Positions 4,523 through 63,835 of a DNA stretch of 64,000 bases are shown piece after piece. The notes below the pieces were generated by a model that saw only the letters and a list, made by a program, of their open reading frames with translations, was not told where the DNA came from and did not search any database. This DNA comes from Diadema setosum (taxonomy: Eukaryota > Echinodermata > Echinoidea > Diadematoida > Diadematidae): NCBI RefSeq assembly GCF_964275005.1, contig NC_092698.1:27151447-27215446 (forward strand), written 5' to 3'. Position 1 is the stretch's first letter. Each line of letters begins with the position of its first letter. Both the position numbers and the translations under genes were made by a program.

Positions 4523-18628
<14,106 letters not shown>

Positions 18629-20974: not shown

Positions 20975-21254
20975 CGTACATATTGTCACTCTGAGGTGAC
21001 CAACCTTATTTATGTATCATGCACGTCATGTCAAGATACATTTTTAATATTGTATTGCTCGGAAAGGATTTGGTATACTGTGCAGTGTGTATAAGCGACA
21101 CAGTGCAGTGTGTATAAGCGAAGTGTGTATCAGCAGAGTCACGTTATATTTTCATAGCTTACCAACTCATTCATATCAGAACTTTTTTATTTGCTATGGT
21201 TTTAGAATAGAAAAAGTACATTTATTTTGCATGCCTATATTTCAACATGTCATA

Positions 21255-39846: not shown

Positions 39847-39867
39847 CAGGGAGGTGCCCACTTCCCT
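39847..39867. mobile_element. Ultra-short palindromic insertion 1 (21 bp)
   Basis: Ends cagggaggtg / cttccct. Flanking 8-mers caccacac and gcgcacac agree at 5 of 8 positions in low-complexity sequence. Weak member of the family described in findings. Confidence 0.4.
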
Positions 39868-40094
39868 GCGCACACTCACACAGACACACGGGTTGATAAT
39901 CAACAGGTTGAACTGCTGCAAGTCGGCTCGCGGAGAACTCCCTCCGCGGGAAACCCATGGTCGCTAAAGTCGGATCGAGGTCACATTCCAAACTAGCCTC
40001 TTGGCAAGGCACTGCTTTTACGATCGTTTATCAGTTCGCGAACACTAGTAGACTGCCTTTCTGAGAAAGGAGACCTCGAACTCGATTTCCATAT

Positions 40095-40320
40095 TCATAA
40101 CATCATGCAGATTACAGTGAGGTTGGTAATTGGCAATCTGTCTTTGACCCTCGACTTGAGAATTGCTTTGAGGTACTGCATATAGTATGTTTCCAGTGTG
40201 TTTTTGTCTACTTTAGATAGGGACATGGTGTTGGCGACGGATAGAGGGAAGAGCTTGTATGGACAATGGAAGGTGTAAGTGAGAGCATGGTTGTAGTTCC
40301 GTGGTGAGAGGGAGACTATA
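40095..40320 (-). pseudogene. Degenerate LINE reverse transcriptase fragment
   Basis: The minus-strand frame contains NTMSLSKVDKNTLETYYMQY and LKAILKSR, matching the layout of the post-catalytic part of some LINE RTs (…MSLS..E...LE..Y...LR.I...). No catalytic motif is preserved. Low-confidence family call. Confidence 0.4.
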
Positions 40321-40698
40321 CAGTAGAGAGTGATTGGCGGAATTACCATGTAGGTGAAGCAGTGAGCAGGAATTGAAGCCAGGAATACTGTAAGGCGAGT
40401 ATCGGTACAACTTTTGAATTAAAAAAATAAGATTAAACTAAGATTTTACAATCTCTTGAAAACGAAACGAGCAATTTCAATTTTCCCACTTCGAGTATTG
40501 AACGCATATAGGCATATGCGTAGAAATGCACAGTCTTGTGGTATACTTGCCACAAGAAGGGCGAAACAGGGAGAAGGTTTGTCCTGTGTGGAACAGATGA
40601 CGGGAGTACTTGAATGATTTTGTAGATAAGAGTCAGACTACGGACTATCAGTCCCTGAGGTCCTCAGTTCAAGCCCTTTTGCGAAAGCAGATGTGCAA

Positions 40699-40718
40699 CC
40701 CCCCCCCCCCCCCCCCCC
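40699..40718. repeat. Poly-C tract
   Basis: Nineteen or so consecutive C, one of many G/C homopolymers in the window. Confidence 0.95.
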
Positions 40719-40959
40719 CACCCCGGTACCCCATGCAAAGCACTTTGTTCTAATTGCCTAAAATGTAGTTCTTTGGCGGGGACTTCAGAGCCATCGATCC
40801 CACGGGGTTGATTGGGGCCTACCTACAAGCATTCCTTGTTTCACTAGATTCAATTGATTGTTTTTCAATATTACTTTCAATATATTTAAATGAAAGCTTT
40901 ATTCTTAATGAAACATAAAAACAAGAATGTACCCGCGAAAAGTGAGAACAAACAGCGAA

Positions 40960-41354
40960 ACTTACGAAGGGACACGATATGCAACCCAAGTTTTAGTCAC
41001 TTTGCTTTCTTCTTGATCACAGCTTTGTTTTTGCTTTTTCCAAGTAATTAAACAAGTGTGAACGGCTGCACCTTTCTCACATCGCACAGGCGAGAAATTC
41101 CATTTTCTTTCAAAAGGAAAAAGAGAAAAAAAGTGAAGAGTCATCTCAAAATCACGTTTTTGGGCCATTTTCGGTAGGTCGGTAGGTCCAATTTTCGCGA
41201 AAATGGTGTCATATTAAAGATGTGCGAGACTTGAAAGTAAAAAGTCAGCGAGTGGCGCGGTTAAAAAAAAAAAAAAAATCGCGCGGCAGAATGGTCGCGG
41301 AAAATGTCGAGGGGGGGGGGGGGTTGATTCAACCTCCGGCCCTTTTAGGGTTAA
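40960..41354 (-). mobile_element. Truncated piggyBac-like MITE copy
   Basis: Ends cccttttaggg|ttaa at 41351-41354. Its reverse complement aligns with the left part of the full copy at 41545, sharing the G/C tract, ctcgacattt, a gacttttt...ctttc..gt word and cgcacat. The other terminus is absent, so it is truncated. Confidence 0.7.
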
Positions 41355-41544
41355 GACGTCGAAAATGCTTGAAAATGTAACGTATCAGCAACAGCATAAC
41401 TCATTGAAAAAGAAAACACGAAATGGAAACTACAGTCTAGCTTGAGACTGAAGACATGAATGGAAAGATTATCGTCTTGACATCCTTGGCGATGCCAATA
41501 TAGTAATGTTTGTGTCCTTTTCTGATCAGCAGTGCCACGGCTGA

Positions 41545-42327
41545 TTAACCCTAAAAAGACTGGGGGGGGGCCTAAAAGGCCCCCCCCCCTCGACATTTCG
41601 CGCAATTACTCTGCAACACGCAATGCTCTCGCCGCGATGCTCTATGACTTTTTTCTTTCGAGTTTCCCGCACATTTTGATGCCAAATTTGTGACACCCGG
41701 GGGTACGGTTCTGAAGTTACGTAACTTTTTGTACATGCACGTGAGACCGAAAATGGCTCGAAAATGTGATTTTGTGTACAAAGTCAATGCAAATTGAGTT
41801 TTTTTCACATGGTTCATATAAATATGCTTATTTTTACTCTCAATGGCTAAAATTAATTTGTTTTAGTAGTATTATGCTTCAAAAAGTGTCTGCCACAAAT
41901 TTTGTTTCAAAAAACAGCAAAATCAAAAGGTCGAAAAAACAAAGAAATACATAAGAAATTCATAAAACAATAAAATAAATAAATTAATTTTGATACCGAA
42001 TTTTTTTTTCAAGTACATTTGCGAAGAATGCCACAAAGAATAATTAGACCAAAAATGAGCACTTTTGGAGCTTTATTTACTGATTTAGATCAAAGAGTCT
42101 GATTTCTCGCATAAATTAGCATAATTAATCAAAATAAAATAAAAGAAGACTATTTTGGAAAATTTAAATATAAGATCTTGTAGATTACATCACATACTAC
42201 CATTGTGCAAATTTCCGCGGCGATCGCGCAATCCACGGCCGAGATCTTAAGGGGGGGGGGGCCTTTAGGCCCCCCCCCCCCCCCAGTCTTTCGAGCTAGC
42301 AAAATAGCCCAGTCTTTTTAGGGTTAA
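41545..42327. mobile_element. piggyBac-like MITE, TTAA target site
   Basis: TTAA|ccctaaaaagactggg at the left and cagtctttttaggg|TTAA at the right are a perfect inverted pair of about 16 bp. TTAA duplication with CCCT...AGGG termini is the piggyBac hallmark. Each terminus is followed by a G-tract and a C-tract that pair with each other (gggggggg cctaaaagg cccccccc), giving a hairpin at both ends. No transposase. Confidence 0.85.
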
Positions 42328-43387
42328 GCCTTTGTTTTCTCAGATTTTTCTTTGACTAAATTTCATTGTATAGTGACTTATTATGTATAATAGGTGCATG
42401 GTCATTGCCTGGTAATCACGTATGGAATTATTAAGATGAATACGATGAAGTAGAACGGTATTTCAACTGCGTTGCTCACAGAAAAATCGATAAAAAAGAA
42501 AATGTCGCTGTTGATTTCGCTTGATGCTTCCTGCCACCAAGAAGGTATTATCAATACCTCCTTGATGCTAGGGAAGGCGCCTAGTGAGGCATGATATCCA
42601 AAAGCAAGACAGACCAAGGAGGCAAAATATGCGCTGCTCTAATACCTCATGTACTCTTGTAGCTTCACGAACATGAAAAAGGAAGCAAGAAGTGCTATGC
42701 GAGGAAGAATATGCGCATTGTTTTTTAAGACAGTCGAGATGTTGAGTTGATACAAAATCCTCTCGAGTTTGTATAGTTTCCTTTCCAAGAATTGTAATAT
42801 TTCATAATAAAGGAAGGACCGCGCCAGAAGATGCCAATAAATGCAAATAGTGGAGGAACACGAGTCGCAATAGTGAAATTTCTTGTTGATTTAGCTTTAG
42901 TTATAACGTCTTTTGTGGCAATCAGTGAGTAACTGTGATGTGACTTGTTTTTGTATACTATCATCGTGAAAACGTCAATGGAAACAACATTTCTGTGTCC
43001 TACCATATATCAATAAAGATAAATCTGAATCTGAACATCACTGTTTCTCGAGAGAAGAGGTAGTGATTTTCCGTCTGCGCAAGTAGACTAGCTTGCCCTC
43101 GCCTGCCCCTTGATGCTTGACCCGAGAAAGCGCCTGAGGATTCCTTTCACTTTCAAGGTTTTCTGTGAAATTCCTCGGATTTTGCTCCCTCTCATAACAA
43201 CCAGTCGCTGCCAATGTCTTTTGCTGGAGGGATAGGTGCAGATGCTGTTGTGTGTGGACTGAGCCACAGGAGACTGGCACTTGTTTCCCTGCTTATACCA
43301 TGCACGCTGCATCAATATCGTTCGTTGCTTCATACAGTTATTGCAGACGTTCGTGGTACACTAAAATTGATATAGTTGTACCTTCAG
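42328..43387. other. Intergenic or intronic DNA
   Basis: No supported exon. A near-palindrome of about 27 bp (caagaaggtatt / aatacctccttg) at 42539-42565 resembles the ultra-short insertions but lacks a clear duplication. 43040-43330 is GC-richer, without a recognisable product. Confidence 0.4.
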
Positions 43388-43434
43388 ATGATGTTTGAGC
43401 AACTGAGACTGCTGGCTAGAAGTGCTGGGCCTCG
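43388..43434 (+). CDS. Candidate exon MMFEQLRLLARSAGPR
   Basis: Acceptor gtaccttcag|ATG and donor CCTCG|gtatgt; 47 nt, phase 0 in and 2 out. Phase-compatible with 39547-39672 upstream, and with the next exon, where the frame would end YRALNCNG and stop at 43571. Could instead be 5' untranslated exon sequence of the gene starting at 43564. Confidence 0.35.
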
Positions 43435-43543
43435 GTATGTTTCATTTCTAGCCATTTGATTTGGCCTTATTAACAGCCAGTCCCTTCCTCAGTGAAGATA
43501 AGATTTGCGTATATGTTTCGTTTTATTTTTGTCTTCTTTACAG

Positions 43544-43609
43544 ATACAGAGCTCTGAATTGTAATGGCTGACTATGCATCAGTTATGTTTGTGGACAATA
43601 GTGGCAACG
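43544..43609 (+). CDS. Candidate exon: either a gene 3' end or a gene start
   Basis: Good acceptor gtcttctttacag and donor CAACG|gtaaag. Two readings compete. (a) In phase with the preceding exon it adds YRALNCNG and ends at TGA 43569-43571. (b) ATG at 43564 in a good context (gtaATGG) opens MADYASVMFVDNSGN, which continues through an exon at 43721 (acceptor gtcttgcag) as ENEVRPFSK, then meets a stop or a weak donor gtgtga. The data here do not decide between them. Confidence 0.35.
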
Positions 43610-43905
43610 GTAAAGTTCGTGATTGTGCTCTATAGTTTTAGCAGTATAAAATATGATCAAACTCATTATCGCATTTAGTGTCACCATCACCGCAGCCATT
43701 TCTTTTCGTCTGTCTTGCAGAGAACGAAGTTCGTCCCTTCTCGAAAGTGTGAATATCTGTTAGCGCCCTCTACTGGGCAAAATAATGAGATGGTCTTATC
43801 CAGTGTGGCGCCTGCCATTGCTTACAGCTGCACATGCCAATTCCGTATTCAATTGTCCCGTTGATTGAGTGATATTTGATGTCTAAACGCACTTATGTAT
43901 ATTAC

Positions 43906-43935
43906 CAGGGAGGTGGAAGTACCTCTTTCCACCTC
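43906..43935. mobile_element. Ultra-short palindromic insertion 2 (30 bp)
   Basis: Starts cagggaggtggaa and ends ttccacctc, with a perfect 9-bp stem (gaggtggaa/ttccacctc). Flanks tatattac and tacatttc agree at 6 of 8. Confidence 0.55.
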
Positions 43936-45001
43936 TACATTTCATATCACAGTGATTTAATTTTGATAGATTTTAAATATTATAGTCATTGCACTTCCAA
44001 ATTTCGTGGAGCGCTATAGGGACCCTGATGCATAACACATCCTATCAAAATGGAATTCGAGGAGTTGCTTTGAATAGAACTTGTGAAATTCAGGGTAAGG
44101 GTGCAAGTTGGAAAGAAGCGGATAAAAGTCATCTAAGGAGACACGATGTCATTAGGGCCCCCCCCCAAAAAAAAAACAAAAACAAAACAAAACAAAAACA
44201 AAAAACAAAACAAAAAAACAAAACAAAACAAAACCATCACGTGGTCACCTTGGTCACATGATTATGACGTTGCTTGCGGAGAGGTTCTTGGCTGTTACGA
44301 CAAAGCAAAATATACCAGACTCACATGAAACTATTAGAAAATTTATAAACTTTGATAAAGCGCCGTTCCTGTGGCGTAGGGGCCTATACTCATCCTATAG
44401 TGGTCGTAACTTTCAAAGTATGTCTGGCTTCGCTCAAATATTCAATTCGTGATTTGTTCCGCTATACTTCCGTCACGAAGTGTAGGCTACATATAATTTG
44501 TCTATTTGCTTTCAATTTCGGATTTATCATGCGTTTGTGTTTTGTTGAGAAGTGCATGCATGGTAACTTGACATCGCACATTTTTTTTTTTGCGTCTTGA
44601 CTCCATATTGTGTTCACTGAGCACTAAGGATCTGAGATTAAGTAATTCCTTGAATGATTTTCGATCTCCCTTATTTACCGGTACAATGTATTCCCATATC
44701 TTTTAGAACCCCGAACTGAAATGGACTCACTGTAAAGTGTTCATATTTGAGTGCAATTCCACTCATTGTCCAATCTGGTTGTATAATATCTACCATGAAA
44801 TCATACAGACAGGACGATAGAAGTTCCAACAAAATCTGTTATAAAAGAAAGTAACAAAGTCACAGGACTTGAAATTGAAAGTTTTCCCTGTTTTCAACAA
44901 GTAGCGCTGTCTGTCAAAAGCAGATAAGAAAATAGTTAAAGGTATGAGCCTCGCACTGACCTGCACTCAAACCCGCTTTTGAAATGGTATATATCGTTGT
45001 G

Positions 45002-45226
45002 CGATACTCCCGTACGAGCTGAAATTTTTGCGGTGGTTTTATTTTCGCGAATTTCGCGAATCGCCTTTGAACCGCGAAAATAACACGCGAAAATAACAAC
45101 GTGCGAATAGATACGTACAGTTAGACCTCGCAACTGCGAAATTAACAACACGTGAAAATGTCCTCCTAGTAGCAATTCGCGAAAATATCTGTACGCGAAA
45201 ATTTCAGCTCGTACAGTATACCCTTA
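45002..45226. mobile_element. MITE with GTACGAGCTGAAATTTT ends
   Basis: Left cgtacgagctgaaattttt and right aaaatttcagctcgtac are inverted. The interior is repetitive in cgcgaaaataac words. Confidence 0.75.
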
Positions 45227-45351
45227 TAATAGCGGCTTCAAGGGAAGGGTATCTGTGGCGAAAGTTCATTGATTCCTAACAATGCAAATCAAAAGAAAAG
45301 GGGTAAAACGAGAAAAAGGTCATGGCCTAGATGTCCGTCAGATTGGTCTCA

Positions 45352-45378
45352 GCAGGGAGGTGGATATTGTACCTCCCA
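45352..45378. mobile_element. Ultra-short palindromic insertion 3 (27 bp)
   Basis: Contains cagggaggt and acctccc arms. With the boundaries shifted by one base, the flanks tggtctca and tgatctct agree at 6 of 8. Confidence 0.5.
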
Positions 45379-48135
45379 TGATCTCTTTATACCCCTCTCA
45401 AAATCCCTGTCTACACATGTATGTAGGGCCTATGACGTATAATTATCAGTACCATTTCTAGAACTTCATTTTCTTTTTCTTATGAAGTTATGATGTACTC
45501 AAACAGAGCGGCCCATGTTTTTTTGAAACGTGTGATGTTGCTCTCGAAAATAAGTGTGATTGTGACCCAAAGAGAGAAAACGGGGGGGGGGGGGGTAGGG
45601 AGGGGTGAAAAAAAGACCAAAAAACCCAAACGGATGTAACTTCCTAGAAGAGGGAGAAACTGAAAGAAAAAAAAAAACGCAATTCCACTGCGGAACTGCG
45701 CTCCCCCCCCCCCCTTTTTTTTAAGTTTTAGATGGGGGTGGGACTGTCACTGTTATGTCAGTGCATATCTTGTAGGCAGCCCCTTCCCCGACACCCTCTT
45801 CATATATTATACTCATCGCGTAATTCGACATACATCGATGATCACGGAAGGCATAGCTGTAGAGTACAGTTTGTCATAAGGGTCGGTGATGGCTGATGTT
45901 GCCTTTATTTCAAAGACCATACAAAGAAACTGCTGCTGCTCAGTTACTGCCAAACGGAATGCCGAGGGCGCAAAATTTTACCGTCTCGTCTAGTTAACAG
46001 GAGTCGAGTTCACTGTCCTGTCATAACCCGTGTTTTTTGATCGCCTAACCTTGTTTATCCGTCAGGTCAGATATAGGGGATTGTTCAGTACACCAATGGA
46101 GGAGGGGAAAAACGTTAGCCAGCAAGGCTAAAATTTTTGGCCAGCTTTTGCGATTGTACATATTATTTTTTAGTAGTGGGGCGCGTAACGTTTTGCCAGA
46201 GGACTATCAAATCCTTTTAACATATTTTGCATTGCTCTAGTGAAGCTGTAAGGTTTCTTCCAACCTGACTTTCCACACGGTGTAAGTCCTGACGTTTTAG
46301 CACAATTTCATGAAAACTTATGTTTATACCTTATGTTATCTGATTTGTTTGTTCAGAGTTCTGTGCCATCACACAATCAGTGATATTCCAGTATACGATG
46401 ACAAACAGGGTTACTTTTCACCTCTTGTAGGATAGAATAAAATAACAATAACAACAACAACAACAACAACAACTTTATTTTATTGAAAAAGGTTAGGCCT
46501 ATAACTTATCTGTAACATTGATATTCCATTTTGGAAAACGCGAAATTAGTGAAATGTGTGACTTTCAAGTTGAATTGCGTTCAGTAGTAATATTCTCAAA
46601 GGAAAACACAGACTAATTTGAGATGACGGTAATCGTGCTTGGGTTCCTATGGCCCTCTGGGCGTAGTGCAATATTGTTCGTGCAATTCATCTGCTCCATT
46701 TTGAATGTTACCATGCATCTTCACAATAATACGGGCAAGATCAAATTATACAATGCTGTTTACATTTTTGTGCTGCGAGAGTTACAAAATTCAATGGAAG
46801 TCTTCTGTAGCAGATGTCATGTGATGCCAAAGCTACGATCAAACTCTATGTGTTCCTGTCCTACCCCCTGCCCCCTTGCCCCTTCCCCGCCCCCTCCGCA
46901 GCAGTCTTCCTACCTGATAATTTTCCCGCCATTTCTGCGAGGGGCTTATACCGTGCCTCGCGACCAAGCGGGATCGCCCCAATTTACATATCTATGGATG
47001 TGAAAAGGGTGTACTCGGCTCAATCAATGCTGCTTGGAATGCACCGAGAACGAGTTTTGAAAGGAAGCATATTTAAGATTTCCTTTCCCATGCACTCAGG
47101 CATTACCACCCTTTCATTTCAGTTCAAATGATTCTCGGTCGTCGGACATGCATTTTTGTAGTATTGTACAATGGCAAGAGATTTATCGTGCCCCTCAAAA
47201 CTGCATCACCCATCAACGATGTGGCATGCTAGCAGGCTTTCATTTCGTAAAACTTTGACCTTATGAACTGATTTGTCCCTCGCAGGAACCATTTCATGGG
47301 ATCCGATTGGAAGATATAAAAGTTGCTTGACACACTTTTCTTTCGTTTCCTCATAAAAGTATCCTGATTATTTATTCTTCCTGCAAAAATATGGAGGCAA
47401 TGACAAAGCAGTTGAGTAAAAAAAAAAGATTTGTGTGTGTGTGTGCGTGTGTGTGAGTGAAATGATCAGAAGTCTTTTTTTTTTGTTGATCGGTTTGAAG
47501 GAGCATGCATTCATCCTGGACATTTTAATCCTTGGAAAATAGATGGCTTCGAGCTGTGGTGAAAGGGGTGCAAAGTTTCTTTCCATCGTTGCTTCGATTT
47601 CAATAATATGACATTTCGTTCAGAATTTCTCTCTGAGCTAAATTCTGCATTTAGCATAGAATACAGTGTGTGGGTACGACTTCACTCGCAGTATAGGCAA
47701 AGATGACAAAACCAAATAAATCGCGAACGTTCACGCGAAGTACGCAGTCGAGACATCGACATCTGGAAAACAGAAATAAGCATTCCTGCCTGAAAGTTCA
47801 TTAAAAAGTAGAGAAAAACCGCATCTGTGCTCTTGCTCGCCAACACTTAACACATGCACATGCCTGTTGCTATACGATGCCTTAGCAGATCCATGGACCT
47901 GCTACACATGGACATTCATCATTTCGTTAATTAATGCATGTCTCCGTGTATGTTAAAAGTATCACAAAAATATTTTAAACATTCTTCCCTGCTTTGATGT
48001 TATGATCTCCTCCGCCGGAAGCCGGGGCAAAACACAACGCAGCTTTGAAAAATCTATAAAATAAATGCGCAGAAGATGTTAACTGTTTTAAATCAAAGAA
48101 AATGCTTGTGAGTTTGTGGTATATATTGGTATATC

Positions 48136-48159
48136 CAGGGAGGTGGAAGAGAACCTCCC
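48136..48159. mobile_element. Ultra-short palindromic insertion 4 (24 bp)
   Basis: Arms cagggaggt / acctccc with an 8-nt loop. The palindrome extends outward as atcc...ggat. Flanking 8-mers agree at only 4 of 8, so the duplication is unproven here. Confidence 0.4.
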
Positions 48160-48594
48160 GGATAAACTGCTCCGACACTTTCAATAACGAAATGCAGGTT
48201 TAAAGAGGAATAGTACTCTCGTTTTCCACCTTTTCCGCACATTTTCGAGAGTAAAAACGGATAGCAAGGGAAGAGGTTATGTATAGTATTGGTTGAGATG
48301 AAAAGCAAGATCATTATTTGAGCCATATAGCGAGCCAATCGGTAATTTCCGATCCCATGACACGAAATTAGTCATGTTTTGAGGTTTACTGCTTCTCATC
48401 ATTGGCGTTTATTCAAAGACGTTTCCATCTGAAAAGGCGCATCAGCCAAATAAGACTGGGATTAGGGAAACAGTTCTCTTGTCAGTGACAGTGCATGATA
48501 TTATGCAACCATTATTTTCGAGACATAGGTGGCGGCTGATCTCGTACTTCAAATAAATGGAATTCGTTGAAAGTCCATTCGTTATTGGACTGTA

Positions 48595-48957: not shown

Positions 48958-48980
48958 ACCTCTCTGGTCCATGGTGAATC

Positions 48981-49001
48981 CAGGGAGGTGGGACCCTCCC
49001 T
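48981..49001. mobile_element. Ultra-short palindromic insertion 5 (21 bp)
   Basis: Arms cagggagg / cctccct with a 6-nt loop. Flanks ggtgaatc (48973-48980) and ggtagatc (49002-49009) agree at 6 of 8. Confidence 0.6.
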
Positions 49002-50648
49002 GGTAGATCGCTGCCAATTGCATGCGTTCGACGGTCTTGTAATTCATGGGATAGGATAATAATGTCCTATATACCTTCAAAGGACAATATCGATACAGTT
49101 GAGTAACATCATGTCCGTATGATGCATATCCTTTCATAGTCGGTTGATCGGACTCGATGTGAATGTGTAATTCTTTCTGGTCCCCCTTTTCTCTCGCGTT
49201 TAGGCTTGTAGAGTTTGGCAGAGGAAGCCATTTCTGTATGTGTATGTTTCTTTTGCCCCCCCCCCCCTTTGCTTTTCACGTCAACCCAAAACGCAAAAGA
49301 CGATGGAGAGGGATTTAAAGGGAAAACCCAGTAAGAGCAAATGAGTTAATGAAACATCGCTACGAATGCAGAAGAGCATAGATTTGTTGCTGTCTTTATG
49401 TGAAACTAGCTGTGCGTATCGCACAGATCAGCATGTAGCGGTAAATCCCTGTTCTTACTGTGAGTTTTGTGAAAAGCTTGCGAATGGAAATGAAGCAGTA
49501 TGGGGAACTGCGTCGTGGGGGTTTTAGAACACGGCGAGTCCTAAGTACACAAAAGAAGTAATAGCCTAAAACAGAACTTTTAATTCTTGGTAGATGGCAT
49601 TACACTAGTACATGATGTGAATTGGTCAGAGGCTTCAGTCTAAGTTTACTCAGTAGTATGGTATCTTTGGTCAAAACTTGCAACAGAGCTGGCATGGATT
49701 AAATTTCATTGCAATTGCGCGACTGTGTATGATACATAATGCGTTAAAAAGTATGGTTGTTCCGACTTCCGTCCCGCTAACCTGGCCTGGAATATTATTA
49801 GGTGATCCGAGTATCCTCTCGGATCACCTTCTGTATTTGTACGGATTCTTTGTTGGTTCTTCTTCTTATTTCTGGACAAAAGTTGTGTATCTACTTACTC
49901 AAAAAGTTCTCAGAGTATCAATTTCAAACTCATACCATATATGTATCATGTCCCAAAGACGACAAATTTTATGTATCACTGTGATCAGTCGACCGTGACG
50001 TCACTATGACGTCATTATATGAAAACACATTTTCATTCATATCTCATTAATGGAATGGAATTTTTCAATGAAATTTACGTCACATACATTTCAAGTTATG
50101 CGCATTTTACTCATATTCTCAAAATTCATATTTTCTCTTAAAACGTGCGCGTACGCGCGCGTTAAAATATTTGTATGCTCAAATCGAGCTCAATTTTTTT
50201 TTGCACACGTTTCAGACAATTTGGAGCATTTTTTGAAAAATTGAAAAAATTGGACGGACGCGTACGCGCGCGCACATATACGCACGTACAGCTCATACGC
50301 AATAGAAATTCCCCGTTTTTTCACACCTATCGGATGCGTAAAATGTCAAGGAATATTTCTACCAAGTTTCAAGTCGATCCGACTTAATATGACGTCATAC
50401 GGGCCCGTCAAAGTTGAAATTCCGCGCGCGCGTCAATGGCGATATACAGTGCAACAATGCAAAAAAACCGCCAATTTTAAATCCGATTTTACTCGTCAGG
50501 ATGGACGGTGACCCCCCATTTTCTTTACATATTCTGAAAGCTGATGAGTTGTACATGTCATCTCATGGGTTGGCGATGCTGAAAAAATGATTAAAAGATA
50601 TCAAATTTCTTAATAAATTTTAAAAAGTAAATTTTCAAAATGACGTCA
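49002..50648. other. Non-coding stretch
   Basis: No supported exon. Includes a C-tract at about 49257-49267 and, at 49800-49830, gtgatccgagtatcctctcggatcac, a small hairpin. 50140-50280 is rich in cgcgcg and cgtacg words. Confidence 0.4.
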
Positions 50649-50649
50649 T

Positions 50650-53022: not shown

Positions 53023-53588
53023 TTAAAGGGAAGGTAAACCCAAAGAGCAATGTGGATTGAGTGAAAGCAGCAACATTAGTAGAACACATCAGTGAAAGTT
53101 TGAGAAAAATCGGACAATCGATGCAAAAGTTATGAACTTTTAAAGTTTTGGTGTTGGAACCGCTGGATGAGGAGACTACTAGAGGATATGACGTGTGAGT
53201 GGACAACAATACAAAGAAAATATAAAGGATATTCAACAAAAATTCACTTTTCTAGAATTATGAAAGAGCAGTGGACCAACCGCTTTCAGAAAGCAGGGGG
53301 AATAATTGGTACCCTTAACATATGTCAACATCAACTTGATGGAATTTGTAATTTTCATGAAAAATGGATTTTTGTAGTATTTTCTTTATATTTTCTTGAT
53401 ATTGTAGTCCACTCATACGTCATAACCTCTAGTAGTCTCCTCATCCAGCAGTTCCAACACCAAATCTTTAAAAATTCATAACTTTTGCATCGATTGTCCG
53501 ATTTTCTTCAAACTTTCACTGATGTGTTCTACTAATGTTGCTGCTTTCACTCAATCCACATTGTTCTTGGGGTTTATCTTCCCTTTAA
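53023..53588. mobile_element. Kolobok-like MITE, TTAA, long inverted repeats
   Basis: TTAA|agggaaggtaaaccc at the left and gggtttatcttccct|TTAA at the right. The inverted arms extend for about 170 bp each (gtggattgagtgaaagcagc against gctgctttcactcaatccac; ggagactactagagg against cctctagtagtctcc). TTAA duplication with AGGG ends suggests Kolobok. No transposase. Confidence 0.85.
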
Positions 53589-55236: not shown

Positions 55237-55267
<31 letters not shown>

Positions 55268-55684
55268 TTGGGGGGGTGTAAATTCTTCTTTTTATTCATT
55301 CGGATAATTATGTGTTTTAAACCAAAGTAAGAGGAATCAAAACCCATTTCCTTCAACCGTGACAGACGTTCCTAATTCTGTGGATTCTTTGAGCACCCAT
55401 TAGTATGCATTAGTATCGTTTTCTGTATGTGTTAAAGCAAGTGGCTTGATGTACTAATAACAGGAAAGAGAAAGCGGTTTTCGAAATGACGTTTTGAATG
55501 CGTCCAATCGACTCCGTGCACGTAAATAAGTAGAAAATGAGATGCATGTCCGAGTTCGATTAATCGAGCAAAACACAGCATTCTCTTTAGAAGAATTAAT
55601 GGTCAGCGAGGAGTTATCATGCGTTTGAATAAGAGGAGTAAGTCAGCGACCAACATTTCTTTGAAACGTGCATGTTAATTCTAC
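53589..55684. other. Non-coding stretch
   Basis: Two weak exon-like segments near 54347-54500 and 54713-54800 have acceptor-like borders but poor donors and competing frames, so I do not annotate them. (GTTTT)n at 55211-55266. Confidence 0.35.
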
Positions 55685-55897
55685 CTGTGTCAAATTTCAA
55701 TGTTGGATCGATGACTGGATGATAGTAACAATGGTTATTCATATCACAGCCAAGAAAGACTTGCTCCAAAGATGCTCCGAACCCACTTGCCCACGTAACT
55801 GTACGTCTATTATATGGGTCAACTACAATTCCCTGTTGATCATTATTCAGACTGAACATGAATTGATTGTTGAAAAAGATGCCTAAGCCCAAATGCC
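55685..55897 (-). CDS. Candidate internal exon on the minus strand, unknown protein
   Basis: Read on the minus strand: acceptor actgacctcag|GG, 213 nt, donor GACACAG|gtagaa, phase 1 in and 1 out. Encodes HLGLGIFFNNQFMFSL, then DPYNRRTVTWASGFG and VFLGCDMNNHCYYHP. Symmetric phase-1 exons are typical of shuffled extracellular modules, and the two close Cys fit that, but I recognise no domain. No partner exon was found nearby. Confidence 0.4.
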
Positions 55898-56910
55898 CTG
55901 AGGTCAGTTGGTTGTTACAAGTGGTATGGTACAATGCACCATAGTTATTTTTATGCCTTCATCTCGAAGGGTGTCCTATGATTGGGTCCAGAAGCAACAT
56001 AAGGTGTAGATGCGCAGAATGGAGTTTGGACAAAATGAAAGGTCAAAATTCACTGTACTTTAGCTAACATAAATAGGCTATGCGTATTATATGCTCTAAC
56101 TTCATCTCGAAATGTCCAGTGGTGATATAATTTGATAGGAGTATAGAAATATATAGAAAAATTATTTGTTTGAAGTCATAAGGGTCAAAGTTCAAGGTCA
56201 ATCATGGCTGTCAGTGTACTTTTTGAAAAAATAAATCCTTTCCAGAGAATAGTTGGCTAGCAACCAAAGGTCCACTAGGCCCCTATGTGATAAAAATGAA
56301 TAAGTAGGGCAAAATGAAATTTGGCAAGTATTTGCATCAACTTTTAAGTCGTGAAAGGTCAAAGCTCAAGGTCGAAGGTCAGTGTTCTTATGAAAAGAAT
56401 ATTTCAGTCTGGATTTCTAGATGAGCTTGGAATTGCTATTGCAGAGATGCCAGTTTCTCTTTTGTTGTACAATTGTATTTTGACTCGATTCTGACTCAAC
56501 CTCCTCTCATCCTCTCTCCAGCCCTTCCATGCATGTAGCAGTATGCATGCAGATATGTTTGTATGTGTATGTACGTATGAATCTTTCCACTCACCCCAAG
56601 AAGTGAGATTAAATCATGTTCTTGTGTGGAGTACAAGAAAGTGCTCTGGTCGACGCGATCAACTGAGTTCTGCATATAAACTGCAACGATTATGTGCATG
56701 AGAGGAAGAGAAAAGACCTCAGCTAACACAGGGTTGGGCGGGCAACTAACGCCAATAGCAGCTAGGTTTGGGAGCAGATGCTATTGTCTGTTCTTGACAT
56801 GTTTCGTCATTCTTTGTATTTGACAAGACGATATTCGTGTGTCTCGAGCCTATGATCATCCACCAATTCAAGACTCGTGTTCACCTTTGTATCTTCGCCT
56901 CCTTCTATAT

Positions 56911-56931
56911 CAGGGAGGTGATACCTCCCTG
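56911..56931. mobile_element. Ultra-short palindromic insertion 6 (21 bp, perfect 8-bp TSD)
   Basis: Perfect 9-bp stem cagggaggt / acctccctg with loop gat. The 8-mer ttctatat flanks it on both sides (56903-56910 and 56932-56939) without a mismatch. Confidence 0.82.
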
Positions 56932-57554
56932 TTCTATATCTTGTAAACGTGTTGTGCCGCACAATTTCGTGATGAGGAGCCTGCGTGGAAGGAACAGGTC
57001 TTTCTCGTCGTGCACTGAAGCCTGTCGTGTGGAGAGCTTTTTGTTCCTATGACGAAGCCATACACAATAAAGCCCCTCACAAATCCTCATATTTCATATG
57101 CATTCGATCCCCTGACCTCTCCTTTCGAATCTGCACTAGATCTCCTCGGGCAATTTGGCGCAGACGACGGGGGTTACTGCATGGGGCACGGAACTGGTGC
57201 CACCATTGAAAAGGGGCCTATCGTAGAAGAAAATTCAGCGCTAACTTTTTTCCACGGAGCTTTTGTGTAGCACCCTGATGCTGGCGGAAAGTTAGCTTTT
57301 CCTCCAACATGAATTCAGTTTTAAGAGCTCTGTAAGAACGTCGTTCGTGTGCACCGAAATTTTGTCATCCATTATCCTGAAAAGGAAGAGATGTAGCGAT
57401 TGCGAAGGAGTAAATAAAACAGGGAGCTGTCTAAAAGGTCGCTGACACGCGATGGTGATGATATTAGGGTAATATCTTGTATGGAATATGGCAGTCTTAT
57501 ACTTTATGCCACAACAAAATTGCACACGTGTGCGTTACACTCCCAGGTGACCTG

Positions 57555-57712
57555 GGGGCCCGTTTCATAAAACTTGTCATCAGTGACAAGTTGTCATGGA
57601 TGTGACAAGCTACTGAAATCCTTGCATCTGATTGGCTGAGAGCAAATTTGTCATAGAAATGTGGCAGTTGTCACTGATAACAAGTTTTATGAAACGGGCC
57701 CCTGGTACACCG
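57555..57712. mobile_element. Short palindromic MITE, GGGCCCGTTTCATAAAAC ends
   Basis: Left ggggcccgtttcataaaact and right agttttatgaaacgggcccc are perfect inverted repeats. Subterminal gtcatcagtgacaa pairs with ttgtcactgata. About 158 bp, no coding content. Confidence 0.88.
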
Positions 57713-58124
57713 GAGTCCACGCGCACGTACTCACGAGTCCTTGGAATAGGGGTGTAGGTAGGGTAGGGTTTAGGCTCAGGTACAGTAGAAGGGCATCAAG
57801 TATGACAATGCCGTATTACGTATGATGTGCACACAATTTCTCAACCAGGCAAACTTTAATTTTTGCATGTTCATTTATGCCCTATGGAAGAGTAAGAGAC
57901 CAGAAGAAAAAAAAAAAATCAAAGGTGAAAAACGACTAGCATTATCTACGCGATCTTCATATTCTCCCGTGTGCACAGTATGCCTCTCCCCATGCAAGTT
58001 AACACACCCACCTGACGCGACACGCCCCTCTGCCGACAGAATGCGTCCTACCGGATATGACCTAAAGCAAGGTTCCTGCCCCTGCTTTTTTTTTCCTCCT
58101 ACCACCACGTTTGATCTTCGTAAC

Positions 58125-58155
58125 TAGGGAGTTGGGAAGAGATTCCTACCTTCCT
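58125..58155. mobile_element. Ultra-short palindromic insertion 7 (31 bp)
   Basis: Diverged arms tagggag...ggaa / ttcc...cttcct. Flanks ttcgtaac (58117-58124) and gtcgcaac (58156-58163) agree at 6 of 8. Confidence 0.5.
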
Positions 58156-59079
58156 GTCGCAACCATGTCGTGGAGGGCTAATCTGCTGACTACCTAATGG
58201 CGAAGGGTGCGCTGGTCTCCATGCACCTCAAAGGATGCATGCCGTTGAGATTCAGCTGTCACGCGCAAAGAGATTTATTTTTCTTAAAGGAAATGCAGTA
58301 AACTGACAAAGAAATTACTGTGAGCAAGTATTAGGATGCAATAGTTCAGTGGTAGTATTATTGTAGAGCTTATTAGAAAATGATGATTGGTTGTGCTGCA
58401 AAGCCTATAGGAGAAACCTCACACCAGTCGACTCCGTCGCTTGACAGCAAACCCTTCACACCGGAGCGTGGCTTGCTCACCCAGAATTCACTTTTGTTTT
58501 GTATTTAGAGTGGCTAGGCCTATAAAATATGATTAGAACTTATCGATCTGTCTTCGGTAGAATTAATAAGCCTCCTGTGACCGGGGTAATAATAGTCTGT
58601 ACTAAAAGCGCATTGAGATGCTTATCAAGTGTGAAATATGCGCGATATGAAAACCAGCTATCATTATTATTATCACTGAGGAGAATGCAAGGGAATGTGA
58701 AAATGATATTTCGTGCATAATAGAATATGGGAGTTCCACATGAGCATCACACTGCAAGTAACATACCAAGGCACTGGTCTCGCTTTGATATGCGCGGAGA
58801 TGGTTCTGGCTTCTAGTTAATGATTTTCTTGTGGCCACACCTTATAATGGTGTTAATATTTTCACTTAGTGTTAGTGTGTAGTCTTTATTAAAAATTATT
58901 GGGTTAAGTTTTCCTCACTTTGTCATTAATGTTTTCCGCTTCTTTTACAGTACTTGACTTGTCATTTTTAAGCAAACTCAGTGTTTTATCATCGTTATCG
59001 GTATTTTCTATGTAATCTGTGTGTATCGTGTGTATGTATGTGAAATAACACCGGCCATTTTTCTTGTGTCCCGTTGCAG

Positions 59080-59145
59080 AAAAGCACTTTGCGACAGCTT
59101 TTCGCCGATAATGATGTGGGATGTCTCCAACATACGCCGAAATAA
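59080..59145 (+). CDS. Weak candidate exon STLRQLFADND
   Basis: Acceptor cccgttgcag|AAA. The frame reads KSTLRQLFADNDVGCLQHTPK and stops at 59143-59145. If a weak donor after GAT (59115, gtggga) were used, it would join in phase 0 to the exon at 60179. Either a terminal exon or chance. Confidence 0.25.
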   Translation, partial: KSTLRQLFADNDVGCLQHTPK

Positions 59146-59240
59146 GCAGTGGCAACTCATTCTGCTCGTACGTTTGCCGAGGTGGGAAACGTAGCACTGC
59201 ATGAATCCTTGGCCCATACCACCTTCAAAGGGACGAGAAG

Positions 59241-59259
59241 CAGGGAGGTAGGACTCCCT
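59241..59259. mobile_element. Ultra-short palindromic insertion 8 (19 bp)
   Basis: Arms cagggag / ctccct. Flanks acgagaag (59233-59240) and actagaag (59260-59267) agree at 7 of 8. Confidence 0.7.
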
Positions 59260-59995
59260 ACTAGAAGGGTAAGTACATTCACCATGTATATCATATATTT
59301 GTTCAACTCACCAATTGTTTGGCGGGAATTTTCCCTGATTTTATGGAGAGCACAGAGGTCGCGCCGTCTGCCGCAGTCCTCCAGATCACACATGTTGCAT
59401 CGATTTATAACGTCACCTCTGAAAGTGCTCGCGGTGGACTGCAATTCCTCGAAAAGCAGCCCCATTATATCACCATGGAGCTACTTGGTAGCTCCATGAT
59501 ATCACTTCCACTAGCGGTACTCTTGCTAAACATTAAGTATTCAGCGAGGGTCTCTTCCACTTAGAAAAAAAAAAAGAAGAAAAGAAGAAGAAGATAATTA
59601 TGGCCCTGTCACATTAAAGATTTCCTGAATATGACAGAAACTAGAAAAAACAGAAAGCTGCTGCCATGCTCCTGGCAATTATTGTCCTGACAGAAGTAAA
59701 ACACCATAAGCCATCGTCTGCTACATAAAGCAAAAAGGGTTATAGGGCAGCTTGAAAACCAGGATCGTGCACGTTCTGACAGAACATGGCAGAGAGAGGG
59801 AGAAAGACATGTGGATCTCTTACGTGACTCGAAGGCTGATGATGCTTGTTGTGCAAGGAGTTTGCTCCACTATGGAAAGTGGACATGTTGTGTATGCAAT
59901 TAAACCATGCAAGAGGAATAGATTTGTTTGAATAATGACTTGTCTGTATCCCCCTATACACATTTTCCTTCAAAGTTTGATTTATTTGTTTGTTT

Positions 59996-60022
59996 ATGTA
60001 TGTATGTATGTATGTATGTATT
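59996..60022. repeat. (TATG)n microsatellite
   Basis: Six tandem tatg units. Confidence 0.95.
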
Positions 60023-60178
60023 TACTTCTTTTTTTTTTTGCTTAAGATTTCCAGTGACATTGCGTTGTCCGACATCCTCCTGAGAGTTTAGAGGAATGGC
60101 TTAATTATAGTCTTATGCTATATCAGCAGTGAATTGTCAAGTTTTATGTAAAATTATCCTGTCTGCTCCTCTCCACAG

Positions 60179-60238
60179 TCACATACTTTGGAAGTCGTTC
60201 ATGACAAACTCGAGGGTAACAGGGAGAAGGCAATTTAT
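60179..60238 (+). CDS. Candidate 60-nt internal exon, unknown gene
   Basis: Strong acceptor ctgctcctctccacag and consensus donor TTTAT|gtaagt; 20 codons, phase 0/0: SHTLEVVHDKLEGNREKAIY. It is an amphipathic helix-like peptide. Partner exons were not fixed. This is the best-spliced coding candidate in the right third of the window, so a plus-strand gene probably extends here. Confidence 0.5.
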
Positions 60239-60456
60239 GTAAGTATGATAAACGTCCCTTCTCCCTTCCGAGCGCTGCTTCTTTTGAAGCAGGTCCTTCT
60301 GGAGATTCTCCCTCAAGTAATCTTCCCACCAGTCATCTCTATAATATGAGCCCCTAAAACAAAGCAAAAACAAAAATTATTTTATGATCAATAAAGAAGC
60401 AAAGGGCAAGTCCTCTGTGAATGTCACTTATTGTAGTTGGGATTTGAAAGGAAGGG

Positions 60457-60802
60457 TATAGCTTTGGTTGCAAGATGGGGCTTCAGGTTTCAAACTCTTT
60501 GTGAGGTAATGAGAAAGCTCTTGTGAAAAATGAAAAAGCACGCAATTCTAAGAGGAATCCAAAGTTTGTTTGATGAAAATTTGTTTTGAAATGGCTGTGA
60601 TATCCAAAAACAAAGAGGTCCTGATAATTAAGACCACTTTGTTTTACTTTGTTTATGAATATCAGTCATTTCAAAACCAATTTTTCATCAAATAAAATTT
60701 GAATTTCTCTTACAATTTTATGCTCTTTGATATTTCATAAATGTTTTTTCATTGTCCCGCAAAAAGTTTAAATATAAATCCGCACCTCGTCCAGAACTAT
60801 AC
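60457..60802. mobile_element. Palindromic MITE, copy 2
   Basis: Diverged relative of 48595-48957: shared words include gatgaaaatt, aaatggctg and gatatcca, and the right end cacctcgtccagaact. Confidence 0.75.
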
Positions 60803-61879
60803 CACCGCTTTAATGGTGGCGCATGACGGTTTCACCAAGGATGTGGAAAAGATAGTCCCTTGCACACACCTCTTCTCGATATAGTATAGGGTCTACTTAT
60901 GAGGTAAACCTTGGTTTTAGAACGATATGATTTGTTATTTACTGACAGCAATGGTATTAGGCGACTGTATTTTCACGTGATCGAAATTCATAAAGTCGTC
61001 CCAGTTTAGTCGCTGATGGATTGTAGCATTAAATTTGCTGTTTTTCGTAATGATTAATTACATTGTACATTTATTTCATTTACTCCTCTTTTCTGAAATG
61101 TAGTCTACTATAGCTTGAAATCAGCCGAACTTCAATCGAGTAGATACATTATATTGACAACATCATGAAAAGGTTGATGATAAATATAGTTATTACTATA
61201 GGGCCTTTATATTCATCACAAATACTTCATAATGCATACGCCGTGCAATCAGGGTAATCGTACATTGTATTCGCGTTCAATTTTTGTGTGATAATGCTAT
61301 ATGTGATCTGGAAATGGATTTATAACTCATCGTGTTCTAATTTCGAAATCTACAAGACGAAGCCCATATCCATATACGGTATATGAATAGAAGCTGCCGA
61401 ACAATTATTGTGACGACCAATCGGGCTCTGAACGGTCGCCTCAGAATTGTTCGAAGATTGGGGCTCTGGACAGACTAATTTATTAGTCCTCGAAGGGTCA
61501 AGGCCGGGCGCTGAACTGAGTGGCCTCAATATGGGTGGTAAATGACCCCGAAAATATTTGCTTACTCTTTCATGACCCCACTAGCTGTATGTTTCATAGC
61601 TCCCAAAGGATTATCTGGTAGTTTTGTTGCGTGCGTGAGCCACTGCTAAGCACAATGTATTTCTTCACTTCTCACCCTTCCCCCATTAATTGTAGCAACA
61701 CTTCACTACTTCACCTGATGGTACATGGAATCGGGTTGTAGGCCTATTCATGCCTCGGGCTGGATCATCGTAATATACAATGAAACACTGTCTTAGAGAT
61801 GGAAATGCTCGTTAAGTGCCATAAAACGTATGTGTGTACGCATGTCTGACAAAATGATACCTTTAGAGAAGGTTCGAGG

Positions 61880-61901
61880 TAGGGAGATGAGACACCTTCT
61901 T
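61880..61901. mobile_element. Ultra-short palindromic insertion 9 (22 bp)
   Basis: Diverged arms tagggag / ccttctt. Flanks gttcgagg (61872-61879) and gttcgaag (61902-61909) agree at 7 of 8. Confidence 0.62.
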
Positions 61902-61987
61902 GTTCGAAGCATGGACCTACGTGAGGAAGTTATAGAGCTCTTCTCATCTTTCTCCTTGGCAAGTTGGCAGGAAAATTGCATTTAGTT

Positions 61988-61988
<1 letters not shown>

Positions 61989-62030
<42 letters not shown>
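61989..62030. repeat. Poly-T tract, about 42 bp
   Basis: Uninterrupted T run. May mark a reverse-orientation poly(A) retroposition scar, but no flanking duplication was found. Confidence 0.95.
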
Positions 62031-62032
<2 letters not shown>

Positions 62033-63041
62033 TAGACGTTTGATCACGCAGATTCGCGTGTACTCTGGGTCGAGTGACTCACAATGTGAGTGTGGAAATT
62101 AGGATCACAAGGAGCGCGAGCGCCCCCCCCCCCCCCTCGAAATAGAGAAAAGGCTTGGTCGTTGAATCGTCATCTTTGTGCCAGAGATGAATGGTCAGTC
62201 ATTTTCCATGTGATGAGGATCTTTAGAGATTTCCGTAAAATACTTCCAGGTTTTTCAGGAACTCGAAGAGGGGTTATGAAATTGTTAGTGAGTTTGGGGA
62301 GGGGGGGGGGGGGTTGTGCACTGTGGACTCTGCGTGCGTGGTAGCCCATGGCTGAATAAAAAAGGAGGATTTTGGTGTAGTGGTGTAGTTCAGGGTGCAT
62401 GAGACGAGTTCGATATCCATGAGTCATACAGTCCAACAAGAGTCATACAGCCCATGAGCTCGACACGAGGCAAAAAAAAAAAAAAAAAAAGAGAAAAATA
62501 ATAATGATAACAATACATAGGGTCCTAAATAAATGAAAAACGATAATGATGATACTTAATGAATAAAGGCCCATGAGTTCGAAGCTAGGCAAACAAGGCC
62601 GACGAATCCGACTTTTCCCTAGTGTCGGACTCGTGGACCTTGTTCAACTGTCGAACTCATGGGCCCTATTTTCCTAGTGTCGAGCTCATGGGCTGTGTGA
62701 CTCTTGGGCCGGATGACTCGTGCGTGTCGGTCTTGTGGACAGCAAATAACTGTAGCGGACGACGTGCAGTTTTGCACTGTGGAGAAACTTTACCTGCTGT
62801 GCCTAAGGCAGAAGACTTTATAGACTGGTAAAACCACTCTGACCCAGTGAAATAACACCACACAGGGCAAAAGTAATACTCTGATGTACAATCGAAATGT
62901 TATTTTGACATGGTTGCTTGATATTGATAACTGTTCAGCACAGAAATCAGTCTCAATCCACGATGGGTCTTTCACTTTTGTTTCATAATAATGGTCCACT
63001 GACATAATCCGATTCGTGCATCCATTCATGCATGACCCAAT

Positions 63042-63240
63042 TTTCAATTCAATTCAATTCAATAGTTTATTTAATTTTCCATCATCAAACAAAAAAGAAA
63101 AAGGAAAAGAGAACATGATACTAGTAGGCACCTATACGATACAAACATACATACATGTCAGGGATTTTACCCCTAACACCCGCAAAGCTTGTCACAGACA
63201 ATGCCCGACATAGCATTAACTACATGCCAGCCTGAATCTT
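63042..63240 (-). mobile_element. LINE 3' end fragment, minus strand
   Basis: ttcaattcaattcaattcaa then tagtttatt is the reverse complement of the (GAATT)n tail with AATAAA-like signal seen at 16960-17005. The right boundary is approximate. Confidence 0.55.
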
Positions 63241-63503
63241 TGTATCAAAGGCATTCAACTGGAGCAGGTTTTTGAAGAACCACCTACAGGTCTTTCTTTC
63301 TATATGTTTGCGTTTTACCCCTCTCCCTGAATTTCTGTCTGTTTCTGTGCAGATTTGATGAATGTAACCATGTTCCTGCAATCTTTTCCAGTGTAAGATA
63401 TGCAGTGAAATTTCGAGGTGCCAATTCAGTGATCATGATGATAGCACCTGCAACAAAATCCTCCAGGATTTGATACGTAACAAGGAAGTGAAGACTAGTT
63501 ACC

Positions 63504-63835
63504 GGTGATTTGGCTCAGTCGGTAGCGCCTCTGCCCCCAGATCCAAAATGACCTGGGTTCGATTCCCAAGTCTAACTGAGCAATGTTGTGTGTAATCATA
63601 CCGTCGCCATGTAAGAGGCAAAACACACACTGTCCCTCGGATATGACCAGGGAGGTGTTCCACCTCCCTGATATGACATAAAATGGAGGTCCCGTGTGTG
63701 AGAAGAGTCACAGCTCATGCACGTAAAAGATCCCGCTTCATTCATTCATCGCAAAGAGCAGGGTTCCTAAACCCGGTGAAGTGGTCCCGCCTCACATCCA
63801 ACTGGACCCCATGGAAGACCAGGTAGTGCAGCTGA
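63504..63835 (+). mobile_element. tRNA-derived SINE
   Basis: The head resembles a tRNA: ggtgatttggctcagtcgg, with an A-box at 63511-63522 (tggctcagtcgg) and a B-box at 63555-63566 (gggttcgattcc). The body includes gaggtcccgtgtg and acgtaaaagatcccgc, words common in invertebrate SINEs. It is not a functional tRNA: the acceptor stem does not close. The 3' end is approximate. It carries palindromic insertion 10. Confidence 0.8.
63648..63669. mobile_element. Ultra-short palindromic insertion 10 (22 bp, perfect 8-bp TSD, inside SINE)
   Basis: Perfect stem cagggaggtg / cacctccct(g) with loop ttc. gatatgac flanks it exactly on both sides (63640-63647 and 63670-63677). It sits within the SINE body, where removing the insert and one copy of gatatgac restores ...ctcggatatgacataaaatgg. 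Confidence 0.85.

Follow-up and report, generated by a model that had tools for sequence, protein, structure and literature searches.

Excision by cut-and-paste transposons usually leaves scars of only a few bases, which are hard to recognise later. Departures of P-type elements remain readable because P-type cuts leave long tails. Excision junctions of the P{wa} element of Drosophila melanogaster, as described in the available part of PMC2895639, carry an 8-bp duplication and tails of up to 17 nt per side. Galileo, a member of the P superfamily in Drosophila, generates 7-bp and sometimes 8-bp duplications with a preference for palindromic GT...AC targets (PMC2775673 and PMC4168063, in the portions available). 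Here we describe a family of short palindromes in the genome of the echinoid Diadema setosum. Very probably they are footprints left by the excision of a cut-and-paste transposon of the P superfamily whose ends read CAGGGAGGTGG... and which mostly duplicated 7 bp of its target.

The window, the whole stretch of 64,000 nucleotides that was analysed, derives from contig NC_092698.1 (positions 27,151,447 to 27,215,446). A preliminary description listed ten palindromes clustered in its right 24 kb and all ten sequences were confirmed at their positions. The exact 9-mer CAGGGAGGT occurs eight times, always forming the left arm of one of the listed palindromes and only at or to the right of position 39,847, in agreement with the clustering and with the absence of copies from the first 39 kb; the palindromes at 58125 and 61880 open with TAGGGAG instead. 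A scan for paired arms, allowing up to four mismatches, yielded 23 rows in the window as against 0 to 7 in each of 30 Markov shuffles. Four of these rows fall in the first 39 kb and they look like chance matches because they carry three to four mismatches and their flanks match at no more than 2/8 positions. A blind palindrome scan of the window produced 59 rows, mostly simple repeats, and 0 to 5 rows in shuffles. The palindrome at 21098-21112, which carries an 8-bp repeat, was rejected as a footprint since it is part of a short tandem repeat. No P transposase was detected in the window by tblastn with the frame of P-type locus L024 and relatives as queries.

The flanks had been scored earlier as 8-bp repeats. 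Their duplication is real but they are mostly 7 bp in size, the flanks having been slid by one base, and in a fixed 8-bp register a score of at least 6/8 occurs only at 56911 and in none of the 30 shuffles. When both arms are taken in full, the putative footprint at 56911..56931 (21 bp, with two perfect 9-bp arms) retains its exact 8-bp duplication, TTCTATAT, which is the minority size, whereas that at 63648..63670 (23 bp, CAGGGAGGTG joined to TTCCACCTCCCTG, with 10 nt of one end and 13 nt of the other) carries an exact 7-bp duplication, ATATGAC, rather than the 8/8 match proposed. Three others score 6/7, at 58125..58156 (decayed, 32 bp, TAGGGAGTTGGGAAGAGA and TTCCTACCTTCCTG, flanks TCGTAAC/TCGCAAC), 59241..59260 (20 bp, flanks CGAGAAG/CTAGAAG) and 61880..61902 (decayed, 23 bp, TAGGGAGATGAGA..CACCTTCTTG, flanks TTCGAGG/TTCGAAG). 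Two score 5/7, at 39847..39868 (22 bp, CAGGGAGGTG and CCCACTTCCCTG, decayed flanks ACCACAC/CGCACAC) and 48981..49002 (22 bp, with the two outer arms present and flanks GTGAATC/GTAGATC).

For two further palindromes the 6/8 score stands only with a shifted or shortened register. At 43906..43935 (about 30 bp, flanks TATATTAC/TACATTTC) 14 nt of the left arm match an intact end (CAGGGAGGTGGAAG) and the right arm, TTTCCACCTC, has lost its outermost bases, while 45353..45379 (26-27 bp, CAGGGAGGTGGA..TACCTCCCA with or without a final T, flanks TGGTCTCA/TGATCTCT) has an extra G at the left. At 48136..48161 (26 bp) 17 nt of the left arm match an intact end (CAGGGAGGTGGAAGAGA) and the duplication is not convincing (3/7). 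Two palindromes were found beyond those listed earlier. One, at 59474..59498, is a perfect footprint-like palindrome of 25 bp with a sister end type, CATGGAGCTAC TTG GTAGCTCCATG, flanked by the exact 7-bp repeat ATATCAC. The other, at 42538..42564, is decayed (CAAGAAGGTAT TATCA ATACCTCCTTG), with an unconvincing duplication (4/7), and it resembles the CAAGGAGGT end type which is spread genome-wide.

The genome-wide scan proposed in the preliminary description, performed with the pattern AGGGAGGN{0,20}CCTCCCT, yielded 4,453 places, some of them multiplied by host repeats, as against 43 for the reversed control. A sister end type occurs at 827 places, some likewise multiplied by host repeats, a figure that is not the count for the type at 59474. 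Among 37 copies with distinct flanks, 22 carry an exact 7-bp repeat and three an exact 8-bp repeat, with no exact repeat of any other size from 4 to 12 bp, and in ten the duplication is not recognisable; mispaired flanks reached at least 6/7 in 0.35% of 2,000 draws. Target duplication as such was correctly recognised earlier, with its size now revised to mostly 7 bp. In the least selected subset, the first 25 places listed for C1 minus two apparent duplicates, 12 of 23 have exact 7-bp repeats, two score 6/7 and two have exact 8-bp repeats. The target preference is GTYNRAC, and 37 of 44 strand readings have T as their second base. One copy of a host repeat (L111) carries a single GTCAGGC and no insert, and this empty single-7-mer site can be read directly from the assembly, as can the footprint anatomy and the 7-bp duplication. 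Spacing was examined among the first 50 C1 places after removal of six apparent duplicates, which left 44; gaps below 10 kb number 5 of 43 against 1.7 expected (p 0.025) and gaps below 30 kb number nine against 5.0 (p 0.045), which hints weakly at local hopping.

The palindromes had been considered to be possibly among the smallest mobile units, and transposition of 19-39-bp palindromes as such would accommodate the dispersal of well-duplicated copies. It would also accommodate the presence of one inside, AGGGAGGTGGATTCCACCTCCCT, between different flanks at C1:4816724 and C1:6120783, of short insides, for example AGGGAGGTACCTCCCT and AGGGAGGTGACCTCCCT, twice each among the first 50 places, and of one recurrent 48-bp version. 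It is nevertheless most improbable. The insides of the 37 distinct-flank copies all differ, and repair can be expected to generate the same short inside repeatedly, as with a P{wa} junction that was recovered independently 14 times (PMC2895639, available part). Of eight fetched copies of the 48-bp version, five share both flanks and three share one, so this version was carried by a host repeat. Moreover, the arms end at nt 18-20, whereas the intact terminal repeat continues beyond that point.

This limit was defined with 17 independent non-intact sites, selected for having an arm at least 18 nt long. Agreement of the arm with the intact end extends over 18 nt at three sites, 19 nt at eleven, 20 nt at two and 22 nt at one (L084, outside the general range). 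Two of the 17 (L086 and L089) lack the right arm and no duplication was found for them. One-armed products also occur in which L122 consists of a 7-mer, an 18-nt arm and a 7-mer, and L124 of a 7-mer, a 19-nt arm, CCCTG and a 7-mer. Since arms leave the intact-end sequence after nt 18-20 at 16 of the 17 sites, a stop directly visible in these long-armed copies, the data suggest that the cut is staggered and reaches about 19 nt into the terminal repeat.

An internal deletion could, in principle, yield similar structures if synthesis-dependent strand annealing copied a little of each end before joining, and such interrupted gap repair is documented for P elements (PMC2895639, available part). The 48-bp host-repeat copies retain, by eye, one of the ends over about 34 nt, which exceeds a single overhang, and they fit gap-repair synthesis or internal deletion better than a footprint. 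As a general explanation this route is very unlikely, because it should produce a broad spread of retained lengths, in contrast to the narrow range at 16 of the 17 long-armed sites, and the simple two-armed copies, read by eye among the matches listed, reach no further than about 39 bp apart from a few arguable ones of 43-44 bp. Gap repair probably accounts for a small minority.

Two elements with intact ends were identified. A 3,928-bp element at C14:23980297-23984224, on the same chromosome as the window, has ends CAGGGAGGTGGAAAA.. and a 7/7 duplication, TTTATAC. Its 481-aa frame matches PF21787, the RNase H domain of P-type transposases (1.2e-25), and 6p5a, the solved Drosophila P transposase (3.2e-9), so that one same-ended element with a P-type frame is directly at hand. 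The frame ends 163 bp within the element, the two frames scanned revealed neither a GTP-binding domain nor a C-terminal RNase H domain, and in the upstream frame THAP was not found and matches to zinc-ribbon and zf-AD were weak and below cut-offs; this transposase-bearing copy looks incomplete. PF21788 is present in the relatives P0007, P0010 and P0020. A 164-bp end segment of the element has a single match in the genome and the closest other match to its transposase is 41% identical, and, on these comparisons, the majority of footprints must derive from other members with the same terminal bases, whose transposase was not found. A second element, at C1:33204031-33206266 (2,236 bp), has a 24-bp terminal repeat with one mismatch and a 7/7 duplication, ATTAGAT. 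Among P-type loci L005-L034, which are 30 of 52 P-type matches and were examined for 1.5 kb on each side, exact CAGGGAGGTG occurs in L024 only, and L005, L018, L025 and L033 have arms with one mismatch. When these loci were searched blindly for paired ends flanked by a duplication, a single weak candidate emerged (L023), and wider stretches of five relatives yielded none. A CAGGGAGGTGATTACC arm without a partner is common to L077 and L078, where it lies 2.5-3.4 kb away from the frame.

CAGGG-like ends are frequent in the hAT superfamily, and the palindromes had been ascribed to an abortive process that joins CAGGG-type hAT ends carrying 8-bp duplications, in line with the exact 8-bp duplications of three of the 37 copies and of 56911. 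Exact 7-bp duplications in 22 of the 37 and the P-type nature of the sole coding element found with the palindrome ends argue strongly against this assignment. In addition, hairpins arise at the donor flanks during hAT excision (PMC3878927, available part), and retention of about 19 nt per end would therefore not be expected of it. A hAT origin is very improbable, and the parent looks like a member of the P superfamily. The earlier mechanism was sound in invoking a target-duplicating insertion, and its option of a repeated process joining two ends came close to the present reading, but the palindromes look like an ordinary by-product of P-type excision, not an abortive one.

For P-type excision footprints, we envisage that the element would insert with duplication of 7 bp of target and later be excised by the transposase, one strand being cut at the outer boundary of the terminal repeat and the other about 19 nt further in. 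On either side of the break, the donor site would retain a 3' tail about 19 nt long. Host end joining would trim, fill and join these tails, so that the two copies of the 7-mer enclose an imperfect palindrome no longer than about 38 bp, in some cases including filler. The cut positions, overhang polarity and repair route are inferred by analogy with Drosophila P.

The palindromes are best read as footprints of an already known kind, unusual in their number. It is conceivable, though doubtful, that the P-type lineage was almost entirely removed from the germline by its own transposase or a domesticated relative, leaving thousands of scars (at 4,453 and 827 places) and few intact elements; the scars would then archive germline end joining and preserve the trace of a stagger near 19 nt instead of 17. 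Thousands of scars in one assembly could provide an experiment-free estimate of the stagger, target preference and hopping pattern of an uncharacterised transposase, and they would show how the germline joins breaks, whether blunt, by microhomology or with filler. They also resemble a new class of palindromic micro-elements and could mislead repeat annotation. A literature text search for the letters of CAGGGAGGTGG yielded no transposon paper by title, and no description of P-type footprints by the thousand in a genome appeared among the matches listed, subscription journals lying outside the scope.

Among described systems, zebrafish Pdre2/THAP9 is likewise a P-type element of an animal and has short terminal repeats, but it differs in its ends, CATACCTGTCAAC, and its 8-bp duplication (PMC10983969, available part). 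Galileo is closer in its 7-bp, sometimes 8-bp, duplications and its GT...AC preference, both shared with the palindromes, but its terminal repeats are long and internally repetitive whereas the two intact-ended elements found here share about 15 and 24 bp; a footprint array like the present one was not found in the available parts of the Galileo papers (PMC2775673, PMC4168063). The P{wa} junctions, on the available account (PMC2895639), are laboratory events in a spn-A mutant with 8-bp duplications and 17-nt tails, whereas the palindromes are known from a genome assembly and show mostly 7-bp duplications and about 18-19 nt. The two are alike in architecture, with a duplication, at most one overhang of each end, optional filler or microhomology and the second duplication, and near one-armed products occur in both.

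The palindromes of the window are mostly explained as excision footprints of the P superfamily, that is, repair scars left at the donor site of an excised P-type transposon between two copies of its target duplication, mostly of 7 bp. The preliminary description, which had assigned them hAT-type ends and 8-bp duplications, had seen a real phenomenon and partly misread it. All ten of its palindromes were recovered in place. The 9-mer left arm of the main type, CAGGGAGGT, occurs exactly eight times in the window, every time as the left arm of one of these palindromes, and only at or to the right of position 39,847; four loose pairs in the first 39 kb are at the level of shuffled sequence. Two further palindromes were found, one of the sister CATGGAGCT type (CATGGAGCTAC..GTAGCTCCATG, 59474-59498) with an exact 7-bp repeat ATATCAC, and a decayed one at 42538-42564. 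The window (C14:27151447-27215446 of the 912.7-Mb assembly) holds three strict copies (48981, 56911 and 63648) versus about 0.3 expected from the genome-wide density, and it is therefore locally rich. In the palindrome at 63648, 10 nt from one end abut 13 nt from the other.

Elsewhere the window carries two large fold-back-like inverted repeats (31844-32457 and 53023-53588) with arms of 249 and 235 nt that are 91-93% complementary and about 100 nt apart, a 421-aa open frame (10573-11835) resembling, by eye, a non-LTR retrotransposon reverse transcriptase, and two tandem arrays, one at 20-2629 (unit about 251-262 bp) and one at 7388-8072 (unit about 157 bp).

The whole-genome search for arm pairs proposed earlier showed that the family is genome-wide, with AGGGAGGN{0,20}CCTCCCT matching 4,453 places versus 43 for a reversed control; these are places rather than independent events and part of them lie inside host repeats. 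Apparent duplicates made up 6 of the first 50 places on chromosome C1, where clustering was weakly above random. At gaps of 21-50 the same arm pair yielded 510 places versus 81 in the control. About 50 distinct places among the matches listed, inspected by eye, comprised simple copies with both arms, 37-39 bp long, a small number of arguable ones at 43-44 bp and, for the rest, a 48-bp host-repeat version and nested, compound or chance matches. The sister type CAAGGAGGTN{0,20}ACCTCCTTG occurs at 827 places versus none in the control; the longest copies among the matches listed reach the 38-bp limit of the pattern, so that a length ceiling is not readable from them. At locus L074 (C1:40726535-40726590) a CAAGGAGGT-type footprint, with flanks GTCTCTC/GTCTCAC, is nested in a CAGGGAGGT-type footprint, and this nesting gives the order of the two events.

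Flanks were compared for 23 copies (the 25 places heading the C1 listing, minus two apparent duplicates), 20 longer or recurrent copies picked by hand, one copy at locus L075 and the window's three strict copies. A length limit of 42 bp left out L074 (58 bp) and the eight copies of 48 bp, and collapsing the near-duplicate L069 reduced 38 copies to 37. A target duplication does flank most of the copies, but its size is rarely 8 bp: exact repeats were of 7 bp in 22/37 and of 8 bp in 3/37, while none of 4, 5, 6 or 9-12 bp was found among the 37. Two more matched at 6/7 and ten lacked a recognisable repeat; with mispaired flanks, 6/7 was reached in 0.35% of 2,000 draws. The C1 subset gave 12/23 exact at 7 bp, 2/23 at 6/7, 2/23 exact at 8 bp and 7/23 with neither, and in one batch of the hand-picked copies the 7-bp repeat was exact in eight of nine simple ones of 36-39 bp. 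Taken on both strands, the 22 exact 7-mers yield GTYNRAC, with T at position 2 in 37/44. Duplications of 7 bp, and sometimes of 8 bp, are described for Galileo, a member of the P superfamily, with GTAGTAC or GTATTAC as the consensus (PMC2775673, PMC4168063).

Genome-wide, PF21787, the domain of P-type transposases, is matched 52 times, and exact CAGGGAGGTG is present in one of 30 such loci fetched, L024. The element at this locus (C14:23980297-23984224, 3,928 bp) begins with CAGGGAGGTGGAAAAGAG on the left and, reversed, CAGGGAGGTGGAAAAAGA on the right, with TTTATAC on either side. It carries a 481-aa minus-strand frame matching PF21787 (1.2e-25) and the solved Drosophila P transposase (3.2e-9). 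This copy is probably defective, because the frame ends 163 bp inside the element and the two frames scanned yielded no GTP-binding or C-terminal domain. The next best genome match to its transposase is 41% identical; named relatives include Anneissia japonica, Asterias rubens, Ptychodera flava and two cnidarians. The end segment has a single genome match, and most footprints therefore descend from other members. Within the element, two nested footprints with exact 7-bp repeats (GTTAATC and CTAGGAC) and a one-armed footprint, AGTACAC-CAGGGAGGTG-AGTACAC, were seen by eye.

In a second intact-ended element (loci L090 and L104, C1:33204031-33206266), the terminal repeat spans 24 bp with a single mismatch, and the ATTAGAT flanks match 7/7. 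No P transposase was detected in it by tblastn; an open frame in it matches a ribosomal protein (Pfam Ribosomal_S11, 1.9e-45), presumably RPS14-like and perhaps a captured retrocopy. Among other P-type loci, three groups (L007/L008; L011, L012, L014 and L015; L028/L030) share pieces of up to 3.4 kb, about 96-99.7% alike, on different chromosomes, and such likeness points to possible recent mobility of further P-type families.

P transposase is described as making a staggered cut, on one strand at the element edge and on the other 17 nt further in, generating 17-nt 3' extensions (PMC7776569). Long-armed copies were used as a test of this cut. Arms of at least 18 nt occur at 507 places in the genome versus none in the control. 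Thirty of these, ten of them from one host repeat, represent 18 independent sites, of which one is an intact element. At the other 17 the arm follows the intact end for 18 nt (three sites), 19 (eleven), 20 (two, both ambiguous by one shared T) or 22 (one), where the search set the 18-nt floor and not the ceiling. Some stops could reflect subfamily divergence, because the reference is the end of one element; at two-armed sites the other arm or filler takes over where the first arm stops. The right arm is present at 13/17 sites, of which seven have one or more copies whose 7-bp repeat is exact, three reach 6/7, one reaches 5/7 and two show none. Loci L086 and L089 are without it, and two one-armed products read 7-mer, 18-nt arm, 7-mer (L122) and 7-mer, 19-nt arm, CCCTG, 7-mer (L124).

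In a host repeat (L099, L105-L116), two GTCAGGC enclose a footprint of 35 bp, which was present in seven of 11 further copies examined among 41 matches listed. Three others (L109, L114, L116) hold different small inserts at the same point, and the remaining one, L111, lacks an insert and has GTCAGGC once; in other copies (L082, L091, L093) the left arm alone is kept. The empty site ties the 7-bp duplication to insertion, and by itself it fits a site never inserted as well as one precisely excised. Because its copies show a range of repair states at a single insertion point, this repeat is useful for ordering excision events.

Some observations fit less well with excision footprints. Locus L084 retains 22 nt of the end; in the 48-bp version roughly 34 nt of one end are left, judged by eye, perhaps from gap-repair synthesis; the ten of 37 copies without a duplication also belong here; and a few short insides were found again at unrelated sites. 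Repeated repair would likewise give recurrent short insides, and one junction of Drosophila P{wa} is recorded as recovered 14 times (PMC2895639). The scar is of a known kind, here in a new family and unusually numerous. Junctions after P{wa} excision are described as opening with an 8-bp duplication, followed by at most 17 nt from each end, then filler or microhomology, and closing with the duplication again (PMC2895639). In sequence the window palindromes look the same, sharing this layout, with a 7-bp duplication in place of the 8-bp one of Drosophila.
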